Source: Mesorhizobium sp. B2-1-1 (lineage in GTDB: Bacteria; Pseudomonadota; Alphaproteobacteria; Rhizobiales; Rhizobiaceae). Taken from it: a DNA stretch of 64,000 nt. Both the position numbers and the translations under genes were made by a program. The notes below the pieces were generated by a model, which made no database searches, had not been told where the DNA came from, and was given only the letters and a program-made list of their open reading frames with translations. The stretch lies in NCBI RefSeq assembly GCF_006442975.2, contig NZ_CP083954.1, forward strand, positions 2,859,501-2,923,500, read 5' to 3'. Positions 57,433 to 60,643 of this stretch are shown one piece after another. Numbering within the stretch: the stretch's first letter is position 1; each line of letters starts with the position of its first letter.

Positions 57433-57510
57433 AAATTTGCGTAGCACGAAAGCGCGGCAAAGACCAAGCGTTGGACGTACCGAAACAGGTTACAAGGGGA
57501 AGTCTTGGTC

Positions 57511-58839
57511 ATGTCCAACCGGCTGAAAGTCACGCCGAACGATCTCAGTGCATTCTGGATGCCGTTCACGGCAAACCGGCAGTTCAAGCAGGCGCCGCGC
57601 ATGTTCGTGTCCGCCAAGGACATGCACTACACGACCAGCGACGGCCGCAAGGTGCTGGACGGCACCGCCGGCCTCTGGTGCGTCAATGCCGGCCATTGCC
57701 GGCCCAAGATCACCGAGGCGATCCAGCAGCAGGCCGCCGAGCTCGACTACGCTCCGGCCTTCCAGATGGGCCACCCGATCGTGTTCGAACTGGCCAACCG
57801 CCTGGTCGACGTCGCGCCGAAGGGCATGGATCACGTGTTCTTCACCAATTCCGGTTCGGAATCGGTCGAGACCGCGTTGAAGATGGCGATCGCCTATCAC
57901 CGCGTGAAGGGCGAGGGCTCGCGCACCCGCCTGATCGGACGCGAGCGCGGCTATCACGGCGTCAATTTCGGCGGCATTTCGGTCGGCGGCATCGTCACCA
58001 ACCGCAAGATGTTCGGCACGCTGCTCGGCGGCGTCGACCATATGCCGCACACACACCTGCCGGAGAAGAACGCCTTCTCCAAGGGCGTGCCGGAACATGG
58101 CGCGGAGCTGGCCAACGAGCTGGAGCGCATCGTTGCGCTGCATGACGCCTCGACCATCGCGGCCGTTATCGTCGAGCCGGTCGCCGGCTCCACCGGCGTC
58201 ATCCTGCCGCCCAAGGGCTATTTGCAGAAGCTGCGCGAAATCTGCACCAAGCACGGCATTCTGTTGATTTTCGACGAGGTCATCACCGGTTTCGGCCGTC
58301 TTGGCGCGCCGTTCGCTGCCGATTATTTCGGCGTCACGCCTGATATCATGACCACCGCCAAGGGCGTCTCCAACGGCGTCATCCCGATGGGCGCGGTGTT
58401 CGTGAAGAAGGAAATCCACGACGCCTTCATGACCGGCCCCGAGCACATGATCGAGTTCTTCCACGGCTACACCTATTCGGGCAATCCGATCGCCTGCGCC
58501 GCGGCGCTCGGCACGCTCGACACCTACAAGGAAGAGGGCCTGCTCACCCGCGGCGAGGAACTGGCGCCCTATTGGGAAGACGCGCTGCATTCGCTGAAGG
58601 GCGAGCCGCATGTCATCGATATCAGGAACATCGGCCTGATCGGTGCGATCGAGCTGGCGCCGATTGCCGGCAGCCCGACCAAGCGGGCCTTCTCGGCCTT
58701 CGTCAAGGCGTTCGAGCGCGGCGCGCTGATCCGCACCACCGGCGACATCATCGCGCTGTCGCCGCCGCTGATCATCACCAAGGGCCAGATCAACGAACTG
58801 ATCGATCATGTGCGTGAGGTACTGAGGTCGATCGATTGA
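57511..58839 (+). CDS. Omega-amino acid (beta-alanine) : pyruvate transaminase
   Basis: 442-residue class III aminotransferase that uses pyridoxal phosphate. The fold-type I motif LIFDEVITGFGRLG and the Schiff-base lysine K284 in TTAKGVSNGVIPMGAV are present. WMPFTANRQFKQAPRM near the start is characteristic of omega-amino acid:pyruvate transaminases. In this cluster it is expected to convert beta-alanine or beta-aminoisobutyrate, the products of uracil and thymine degradation, to semialdehydes. ATG 57511 has AAGGGGAAG upstream. It is first in the operon; a DUF559 element separates it from the amidohydrolase gene. Confidence 0.91.
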   Translation: MSNRLKVTPNDLSAFWMPFTANRQFKQAPRMFVSAKDMHYTTSDGRKVLDGTAGLWCVNAGHCRPKITEAIQQQAAELDYAPAFQMGHPIVFELANRLVDVAPKGMDHVFFTNSGSESVETALKMAIAYHRVKGEGSRTRLIGRERGYHGVNFGGISVGGIVTNRKMFGTLLGGVDHMPHTHLPEKNAFSKGVPEHGAELANELERIVALHDASTIAAVIVEPVAGSTGVILPPKGYLQKLREICTKHGILLIFDEVITGFGRLGAPFAADYFGVTPDIMTTAKGVSNGVIPMGAVFVKKEIHDAFMTGPEHMIEFFHGYTYSGNPIACAAALGTLDTYKEEGLLTRGEELAPYWEDALHSLKGEPHVIDIRNIGLIGAIELAPIAGSPTKRAFSAFVKAFERGALIRTTGDIIALSPPLIITKGQINELIDHVREVLRSID

Positions 58840-58857: not shown

Positions 58858-59364
58858 CCCTCCCCCTCGAGGGGAGGGTGGCCGCGAAGCGGTCGGGTGG
58901 GGTCGGTGCGACGGGGTGCCGACCTGATCTGTTGCCGCGAGGCTGCCGTTGATGCCCCGCACTCGCGTGAGCTACGAAATGCGCCAAAAGGCGCGCGCGC
59001 TTCGAGTTCACGCAACCAGGGGTGAATCCTTGCTCTGGTATGAACTGCGCGAGCTGAAATCGGCCGGCATCAAGTTTCGTCGTCAGTGTCCGATCGGGCC
59101 TTATATCGTTGACTTTGCCTGCCTCGCCGTGAAGCTGATCGTTGAAGTTGATGGCGATCTGCACGAACACGAGAAGGGCAAGCGGCATGATGCCGTTCGT
59201 GATGCCTATCTGCGCTCGCTCGGCTTTGATGTCTTTCGCGTCGATGAGCCCGATGTCATAAACAACCCTTGGCATGTTGCGCAGGTGGTCAAAGGGAAGG
59301 TCGAGCGCATGTCCGGCGACCCCACCCGACCGCTTCGCGGCCACCCTCCCCTCGAGGGGGAGGG
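58858..59364. mobile_element. DUF559-carrying element bounded by 48-bp perfect inverted repeats
   Basis: The left repeat 58858-58905 and right repeat 59317-59364 are exact inverses over 48 bp and each contains its own small palindromes (CCTCGAGG, CGCGAAGCG). They enclose the DUF559 gene at 58952. The unit lies 19 bp after the transaminase stop and 29 bp before the amidohydrolase start, inside an operon. No flanking target duplication is obvious. Mobility is inferred, not shown. Confidence 0.6.
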
Positions 59365-59392
59365 GAACGCCACGCAATTGGAGAGGTTTTGA
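58952..59392 (+). CDS. DUF559 family protein (PD-(D/E)XK/Vsr-like endonuclease fold)
   Basis: 146-residue protein with the DUF559 pattern: RALRVHATRGESLLWYELRE, KFRRQCPIGPYIVDF and KLIVEVDGDLHEH. Putative nuclease residues are D54, E65, D67 and H71, matching a PD-(D/E)XK-like core. Residues about 122-138 (PTRPLRGHPPLEGEG) are encoded by the right inverted repeat of the element. ATG 58952 is preferred to TTG 58949. The stop directly abuts the amidohydrolase ATG (TGAATG). Its cellular role is unknown; homologues are thought to nick or repair DNA, but no activity can be claimed. Confidence 0.82.
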   Translation: MPRTRVSYEMRQKARALRVHATRGESLLWYELRELKSAGIKFRRQCPIGPYIVDFACLAVKLIVEVDGDLHEHEKGKRHDAVRDAYLRSLGFDVFRVDEPDVINNPWHVAQVVKGKVERMSGDPTRPLRGHPPLEGEGNATQLERF

Positions 59393-60643
59393 ATGGCCGC
59401 ACCCGGCGAGAATCTGCGAATCAATTCAGACCGTTTGTGGGATTCCATCATGGAGATGGCGAAGATCGGCCCCGGCATTGCCGGTGGCAACAATCGCCAG
59501 ACCGTGACCGACGAGGACGGCGAGGGCCGGCATCTGTTCAAGCGCTGGTGCGACGCGGCCGGGCTCGAAATGGGCGTCGACGAGATGGGCACCATGTTTG
59601 CCAGGCGCGAAGGCGCCGATCCCAGCCTGCCGCCGGTCTATGTCGGCAGCCATCTCGACACGCAGCCGACCGGCGGCAAGTATGACGGCGTGCTCGGCGT
59701 GCTCGGCGGCCTGGAGATCGTCCGCTCGCTCAATGATCTCGGCATCAAGACCAAACATCCGATCGTGGTCACGAACTGGACCAACGAGGAGGGCTCGCGT
59801 TTTGCCCCGGCGATGATGGCGTCCGGCGTGTTCGCCGGTGTGCTCGACCAGGCCGACGTCTACGAGCATACGGACAAGAACGGCAAGAAATTCGGCGAGG
59901 AACTGGAGCGTATCGGCTGGAAGGGCACGGAGAAGGTCGGCGATCGCAAGATCCACGCCTTTTTCGAACTGCATATCGAGCAAGGGCCTATCCTCGAGGA
60001 CGAAGGCATCGACATCGGCGTCGTCACCCATGGACAGGGGCTGAAATGGCTGCAGGTGACGCTGACCGGCAAGGAGGCGCATACCGGCTCGACGCCGATG
60101 CCCAAGCGCCGCAATGCCGGGCTCGGCATGGCGCGCGTGATCGAACTGGTGCACGAGATTGCCATGGACTACCAGCCGGACGCCGTCGGCGCGGTCGGCC
60201 ACATGGAAGTCTATCCGAACTCGCGCAACATCATCGCCGGGCGCACGGTCTTCACCATCGACATCCGCTCGCCGGAGAAGGAAGTGCTCGACGCCATGGA
60301 TGGGCGCATCCGCGAAGGCATCGACACGATATGCGAGGCGCTCGACATCCAGTACAAGATCGAGCAGGTCGGCCATTTCGATCCGGTCACCTTTGACAAG
60401 GGCTGCGTCAAGGCGATCCGTGATGCCGCCGACCGGCTCGGCTACACGCACCGCAACATCGTCTCGGGCGCGGGCCACGACGCCTGCTGGATCAACCGCG
60501 TCGCGCCGACCGCCATGGTGATGTGCCCCTGCGTCGACGGTCTCAGCCACAACGAGGCCGAGGAGATCTCCAAGGAATGGGCGGCGGCAGGAGCCGACGT
60601 GCTGTTCCATGCCGTGGTGGAGACAGCGGTCATCGTGGAGTAA
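59393..60643 (+). CDS. Zn-dependent N-carbamoyl-beta-amino acid amidohydrolase (beta-ureidopropionase-type)
   Basis: 416-residue M20/hydantoinase-carbamoylase family enzyme that hydrolyses N-carbamoyl-beta-alanine to beta-alanine, CO2 and ammonia, the third step of reductive pyrimidine breakdown. Bimetal ligands are visible: H88 in GSHLDTQPTGGKYDG (with D99) and E132/E133 in TNWTNEEGSRF, followed by ELHIEQGPILEDEGIDIGVV and GAGHDACW near the end. ATG 59393 has GGAGAGG 6 bp upstream and abuts the DUF559 stop. It lies between the transaminase and dihydropyrimidinase genes. Confidence 0.9.
   Translation: MAAPGENLRINSDRLWDSIMEMAKIGPGIAGGNNRQTVTDEDGEGRHLFKRWCDAAGLEMGVDEMGTMFARREGADPSLPPVYVGSHLDTQPTGGKYDGVLGVLGGLEIVRSLNDLGIKTKHPIVVTNWTNEEGSRFAPAMMASGVFAGVLDQADVYEHTDKNGKKFGEELERIGWKGTEKVGDRKIHAFFELHIEQGPILEDEGIDIGVVTHGQGLKWLQVTLTGKEAHTGSTPMPKRRNAGLGMARVIELVHEIAMDYQPDAVGAVGHMEVYPNSRNIIAGRTVFTIDIRSPEKEVLDAMDGRIREGIDTICEALDIQYKIEQVGHFDPVTFDKGCVKAIRDAADRLGYTHRNIVSGAGHDACWINRVAPTAMVMCPCVDGLSHNEAEEISKEWAAAGADVLFHAVVETAVIVE

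Follow-up and report, generated by a model that had tools for sequence, protein, structure and literature searches.

The locus described here raises the question of why a gene of the DUF559 family should stand between two exactly inverted repeats inside an operon, and whether the gene and the repeats belong together. It lies in a 64,000-nucleotide stretch of the Mesorhizobium sp. B2-1-1 genome (contig NZ_CP083954.1, positions 2,859,501 to 2,923,500), which we call the window. An initial annotation had placed a DUF559 gene between perfect 48-bp inverted repeats within a pyrimidine operon, and the coordinates, the match to PF04480 and the neighbouring genes all agree with that description. The open reading frame scores 103.2 bits against PF04480 (curated cut-off 20.6; E 8.7e-30), and the two arms, 100% complementary over 48 nt, are spaced 411 nt apart (Table 1). 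Reading of the frame also confirmed that the right repeat encodes the C-terminal tail of the protein and that the stop abuts the next operon gene, with the TGA at 59390-59392 directly preceding the ATG of the amidase gene. Since the neighbours are an aminotransferase, a hydantoinase/carbamoylase-type amidase and, further downstream of the amidase, a dihydropyrimidinase, the pyrimidine label is reasonable.

Table 1. Features of the DUF559 locus, in positions of the window
Feature	Positions	Strand	Remarks
Class-III omega-aminotransferase gene	57505-58839	+	Upstream flank of the slot; context, outside the unit
Left arm, 48 bp	58858-58905	+	Exact inverse of right arm; ends in a G-rich tail pointing to the DUF559 gene
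Hairpin 1 of left arm	58858-58878		
Hairpin 2 of left arm	58879-58895		
DUF559 gene, 146 aa	58952-59392	+	ATG start; PF04480 match, domain at about 58979-59290
Right arm, 48 bp	59317-59364	-	Exact inverse of left arm; within the 3' coding end of the DUF559 gene
Hydantoinase/carbamoylase-type amidase gene	59393-60643	+	Downstream flank of the slot; context, used for slot comparison

The flanking inverted-repeat score of this locus is 96, and none of 1415 random pseudo-genes elsewhere in the window reached 40 (maximum 31), so the repeats are not a product of chance. Their maintenance is evident from relatives carrying an intact unit. Among 13 such genomes, mean pairwise divergence was 0.033 for the left arm and 0.006 for the right arm, compared with 0.262 in the noncoding stretch between the left arm and the start codon, 0.197 and 0.195 just outside the arms, and 0.308 at codon position 3 of the gene. 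Because the arms diverge far less than their surroundings, both are maintained although they are the sole two copies of their sequence in the genome.

Across 43 genomes, a set that includes some fetched for having DUF559, the slot holds the intact unit in 13, an internally deleted unit in one (L046), scar-like short alleles in four, another insert in three and a different short spacer in 22. The unselected 30 best orthologues comprise nine intact units, one internally deleted unit, one scar, three other inserts and 16 empty slots. The gene is therefore not a fixture of all relatives with diverged ends, a possibility that had been raised at the outset, being intact in 13 of the 43 with conserved arms. 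One scar-like allele (L064, from genome G061) is a bare palindrome, of the same kind as that seen in two E. coli strains (see below), and three more (L214, L215 and L219) have a scar-like gap of 55-56 bp that could also be the pre-insertion state. A clean target-site duplication or an unambiguous empty site was found in none of the 43 genomes. L045, L048 and L050 carry an unrelated insert of ~860 bp in this slot upstream of the amidase, and the empty allele of L060 looks recombinant, its left half being of one spacer type and its right half of the occupied type. Several relatives (L042, L059, L067, L203, L206 and L209) have a further DUF559 gene, from a different clade, just downstream of the amidase; the operon therefore has two DUF559 slots.

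The rest of the genome (6.18 Mb) places this unit among others. It contains seven DUF559 places, one of them truncated, and GC-rich palindromes of differing families lie beside each of the seven. A 30-nt core of the window repeat, allowed up to three mismatches, occurs at its two arms only. The repeat is thus not scattered without DUF559, and we rejected it as a multi-copy element of its own genome; the suggestion in the initial annotation that many copies might share the same ends fails for this 48-bp sequence but is true of other families. One of these, family B, is found with three further DUF559 places (L001, L002 and L007). It has 95 copies in this genome at up to three mismatches, and 70 of these lie within 260 bp of another copy, where ~0.4 neighbour pairs would be expected. 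Most of the close pairs (29 of 35) share one orientation at 89-94 bp, and, of twelve loci printed, the ten showing both members present a ~170 bp unit with similar ends and unrelated flanks. With its inverted pairs of fixed size and unrelated flanks, this family has a REPIN-like organisation. All 95 copies are on contig C1 of this genome (G000), with none on the smaller second contig C2.

DUF559 genes flanked by palindromes are common well beyond this genome. DUF559 is present in 115 of the 119 genomes of our genus sample, and 76 of 122 distinct instances collected in the genus have inverted flanks scoring at least 40; the remaining 46 fall below this threshold, many of them, chiefly of the B clade, having a repeat on one side only. 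The 122 instances include orthologous loci and hence are not independent, grouping into 24 site clusters, with families B and G each found at six. Outside the genus, GC-rich inverted palindromes flank 35 of 65 DUF559 loci (control, 1 of 1785 pseudo-genes in those loci). A named scan of the best 80 of 553 relatives found inverted flanks at 52 of 79 DUF559 loci (control, 3 of 2205), the raw count of 53 of 80 having been reduced by L249, which was dropped because a run of N produced its score. Records from Chloroflexi, Planctomycetota and Melainabacteria are among the positives of the named scan. The loci of the family searches are the best-scoring ones, so these bracket rates apply to those samples.

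Reading of the arms suggested a common architecture, in which a distal hairpin (CCCTCTCCC-loop-GGGAGAGGG or variants) is often followed by a second hairpin and then by a GGGNGAGGG-like tail facing the gene. When 25 arms were folded alone, most retained the distal hairpin and, where present, the second hairpin, although the sequence of the latter differs between families; six folded otherwise, wholly or partly (A2_L205, L172, L244, L246, L220 and L274). Each window arm likewise pairs with itself when folded alone. Whole units can also be repeated within a genome: G085 contains three arm-gene-arm units at three sites, 89-91% identical arm to arm and with no further pairwise similarity. At L017 and L031, two E-type DUF559 units, both flanked by inverted arms of their own, stand in tandem at a distance of ~1.1 kb.

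Sequence comparison provides strong evidence that the repeat family follows the DUF559 clade, in both association and specificity. When mapped onto a tree of the 122 proteins from the genus, the repeat labels of 99 rows, in 9 states, required 9 changes, compared with 54-69 in 200 shuffles; the labels are patterns written after reading the arms, and the 23 of the 122 instances that remained unlabelled were left out of this test. The core B-clade gene is present in nine of ten genomes rich in family B and in none of 14 genomes poor in it (Fisher 7.6e-6). The rich set has 80-118 copies per genome and does not correspond exactly to the ten highest counts, G016, G002, G114 and G042 having been passed over, and the poor set consists of all DUF559-positive genomes with at most two copies, among them G013, with gene fragments only that are unplaced on the tree, and G037 and G087, with a gene of the sister subclade. 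G008 departs from this pattern, with 80 B copies but no core-B gene. In the four genus genomes that have no DUF559 at all, two of them incomplete, family B numbers 0, 4, 6 and 8 copies, and some genomes with DUF559 of other clades have no B copies, as expected.

The association extends through the phylum. We counted the motif CCTCTCCC-N2-8-GGGAGAGG in 299 genomes and found a median of 13.5 copies in those with a strong DUF559 hit (n = 90), 0 in those with a weak hit (n = 26) and 0 in those without (n = 183), strong and weak hits being split at E 1e-10, a value chosen after seeing the data. At least three copies were present in 75 of the 90 strong-hit, 3 of the 26 weak-hit and 10 of the 183 DUF559-less genomes, and a reversed-pattern control gave 0 in nearly all genomes and at most 7. 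Within the 13 families that have both states, the motif count was higher with DUF559 in 12 and tied in one. Exceptions occur in both directions: eight of the 90 strong-hit genomes have no motif copy, and many copies were found without a strong hit in G341 (147, with a weak hit), G171 (57), G269 (35), G311 (34), G167 (19) and G136 (13). Taken alone, this association would be compatible with either partner depending on the other.

The repeat class itself has in part been described. Holder et al. 2015 (PMC4666352) reported the TM/PIT intrastrand-triplex motif, in which a pyrimidine tract, a loop and two purine tracts can fold as a triplex, at 23 copies in E. coli K-12 and in more than 260 genomes. 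The simple form of the DUF559 repeat, CCCTCTCCC-loop-GGGAGAGGG-linker-GGGTGAGGG, seen at many DUF559 loci, matches Table 1 of that paper; the window arms depart from this form by an intervening second hairpin. The authors found the motif on no mobile elements, and the accessible part of their text names no associated gene and does not contain the word 'nuclease'. The initial annotation had called the window unit a candidate undescribed element, a label that fits its repeat class only in part. On the evidence of these sequences, the DUF559 family is the best candidate so far for an agent that may spread TM/PIT-type repeats.

E. coli allows a comparison within one species. The ycjD gene of MG1655 is a DUF559 gene, with a TM copy ~165 bp past its 3' end and a degenerate copy that spans this end. 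Both neighbouring copies are thus on the 3' side, and ycjD lacks a bracket of inverted copies. A ycjD core (at least 80% of the query) was found in 3363 of 5426 E. coli genomes. In an even sample of 60 rows, from which one plasmid row (H130) was dropped, 37 ycjD-positive records had 14-30 matching places (median 20, one being ycjD itself), compared with 1-24 (median 3) in 22 ycjD-negative chromosomes (p = 6e-8, uncorrected for lineage), of which ten still had at least 10. Two strains have a bare palindrome where MG1655 has a TM pair. In all eight ycjD-negative regions that we read (L402-L409), a TetR-family gene follows fabI, where K-12 (L400) has ycjD.

The protein is probably a small nuclease of the Vsr/homing-endonuclease fold, as judged from a structure model of the window protein that matches this fold, with I-Bth0305I among its closest solved relatives. 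Across 59 DUF559 sequences, residues E, D, ExD, H, D and R are invariant, and the putative PD-(D/E)XK residues are intact in the window protein, which is under purifying selection (median dN/dS 0.054 over 78 pairs). This predicted fold and residue set are shared with the Vsr endonuclease; the window gene differs in having no linked methylase gene alongside, and DUF559 differs in being partnered with dispersed palindromes. The same partnership separates it from the homing endonuclease I-Bth0305I, as does the setting of the window gene, which is intergenic with intact genes on either side rather than within an intron, an intein or a cleaved host gene. A protein with the same domain, VsrA of Caulobacter, was studied as a mismatch-repair enzyme, being required for the SOS response of a methylase mutant (PMC12907096); its text contains no occurrence of 'palindrom', 'inverted repeat' or 'REP element'. 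As a listed defence gene DUF559 was rejected, PADLOC having given a single weak partial match (E 0.0099).

Y1 transposases (RAYTs) are the known enzymes of GTAG-type repetitive extragenic palindromes (REPs), and together these form the REPtrons (RAYT/TnpA-REP, GTAG REPs and REPINs), to which the initial annotation had likened the window unit. DUF559 systems resemble REPtrons in that a nuclease-type gene adjoins inverted palindromic repeats, families of repeats correspond to clades of the enzyme, and repeats are dispersed as inverted pairs. They differ in that the enzyme has a predicted PD-(D/E)XK rather than a Y1/HUH transposase fold, that the window arms have no GTAG tag, and that whole DUF559 units can be multi-copy. 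The analogy thus serves well for DUF559 genes in general, through bracketing, clade matching and co-occurrence, and less well for the window repeat, which with its two copies lacks the dispersed inverted pairs that family B shows in the same genome.

We consider it likely, with a probability of roughly three in four, that DUF559 genes and palindromic repeats form widespread nuclease-repeat partnerships, in which the protein acts on its cognate repeats and of which the window unit is one resident member. We propose that a nuclease of the Vsr/homing-endonuclease fold operates this pairing as a REPtron-like system, with cleavage and transposition inferred from the sequences. A cognate repeat family lies beside or around the DUF559 gene and, in many genomes, is dispersed, frequently in inverted pairs. 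Probably acting as a dimer on two arms, the protein would bind the hairpin and the G-rich tail when the arms are extruded as single-stranded or cruciform DNA, and would nick or cut there. Repair could then copy the repeat pair, and rarely the whole unit, to other sites, while failed events may collapse the unit to a single palindrome. The window unit would be a long-standing resident kept by selection, with no dispersed offspring from its own family.

Y1 transposases being the established REP enzymes, the repeats might instead have been spread by RAYT or TIRYT proteins, with DUF559 genes as passengers that settled between them; the GGGGWSAS motif of some published TIRYT TIRs even fits the tails GGGGAGAG and GGGGTGAG seen here. 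However, Y1_Tnp (PF01797) has no match at E <= 0.001 in the B2-1-1 genome, nor in eight of nine genus genomes of the sample, and at least three motif copies are found in 40 of 50 genomes with DUF559 and without Y1, compared with 6 of 110 with Y1 and without DUF559. Y1 alone does not predict the motif (p = 0.67). Given this lack of association, Y1/TIRYT transposases were ruled out as the agent, leaving the passenger account highly improbable. It is unlikely, too, that DUF559 serves mismatch repair as a Vsr-type nuclease, with the palindromes as no more than its regulatory hairpins or terminators. The Vsr fold of the model and the mismatch role proposed for VsrA (PMC12907096) speak for such an enzyme, but regulatory hairpins would not predict dispersed copies that co-occur genome-wide or repeats specific to clades, and, as PMC4666352 states, PIT motifs had shown neither promoter nor terminator activity in earlier work.

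Two further alternatives were weighed. The exact complementarity and strong conservation of two arms that are sole copies, around a gene inside an operon, would fit a role in RNA, where the operon mRNA would form a 48-bp stem that loops out the DUF559 message or insulates it, any link to dispersed repeats being secondary; yet each arm pairs with itself, at many DUF559 genes only one side carries a repeat, and co-occurrence across genomes would be left unexplained, which makes this account very unlikely. Homing at fixed slots, by which the nuclease drives its own allele into strains without it and dispersed repeats arise as by-products, draws on the kinship with I-Bth0305I, on one genomic slot that holds C-type or E2-type DUF559 genes in different genomes, and on the patchiness of the window slot, whose occupied or empty state changes ten times on the flanking-gene tree (the three other inserts counted as occupied). 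Against it, families B and G each occupy several sites in the genus sample, as do the three copies in G085, and the gene in the window slot shows no lower divergence than its flanks (at codon position 3, 0.308 compared with 0.224 in the amidase). We rejected recent homing at this slot on the latter ground, and regard homing in general as quite unlikely.

The preferred reading, a nuclease partnered with its cognate repeats, may have a parallel in another enzyme family. CGTC REPs are dispersed palindromic repeats described, in the part of the source available, as having no transposase dedicated to them (Di Nocera et al. 2013, PMC3733652). They differ from DUF559 repeats in tag and stems; the window arms do not match the CGTC tag and 8-9 bp stems described there, and CGTC REPs were rejected as the DUF559 repeat, a CGTC-type motif being flagged at 1 of 80 DUF559 loci. 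The CT-type motif is present in 172 of 189 DUF559 instances, compared with 0 of 69 scorable GIY-YIG loci. The GIY-YIG control family had inverted flanks at 7 of its 30 best loci of the phylum, and at 26 of 39 scorable loci in a further alphaproteobacterial set (40 fetched; control 0 of 39). The flanks of single-domain GIY-YIG genes often resemble CGTC REPs (L330-L399, for example L354, L355, L374 and L377, and L387 in the B2-1-1 genome). Within the open-licence PMC literature, preprints excluded, DUF559 papers do not mention 'inverted repeat'; calling this a first description would take a broader search. The open-licence PMC literature likewise yielded no pairing of GIY-YIG with repetitive extragenic palindromic sequences, and co-mentions of REPIN look like chance in restriction-enzyme papers.

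These observations suggest, tentatively and at slightly less than even odds, that REP-type repeats comprise independent classes, each with its own single-domain nuclease: GTAG with Y1, which is known, TM/PIT with DUF559, and CGTC with orphan GIY-YIG proteins. If true, transposition in the DUF559 and GIY-YIG classes would depend on nucleases that are not known to transpose DNA by themselves. The GIY-YIG loci bear on the statement that CGTC REPs lack a dedicated transposase, as it stands in the available text of PMC3733652, and, together with the DUF559 result, they suggest that the pairing of repeat and nuclease is a general design reached by unrelated enzymes. For DUF559, a large family without known function would gain a probable substrate, and the TM/PIT repeats, whose origin is unexplained in the accessible text of PMC4666352, would gain a candidate enzyme; E. 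coli K-12 carries both, the DUF559 gene ycjD and the 23 published copies of the repeat.
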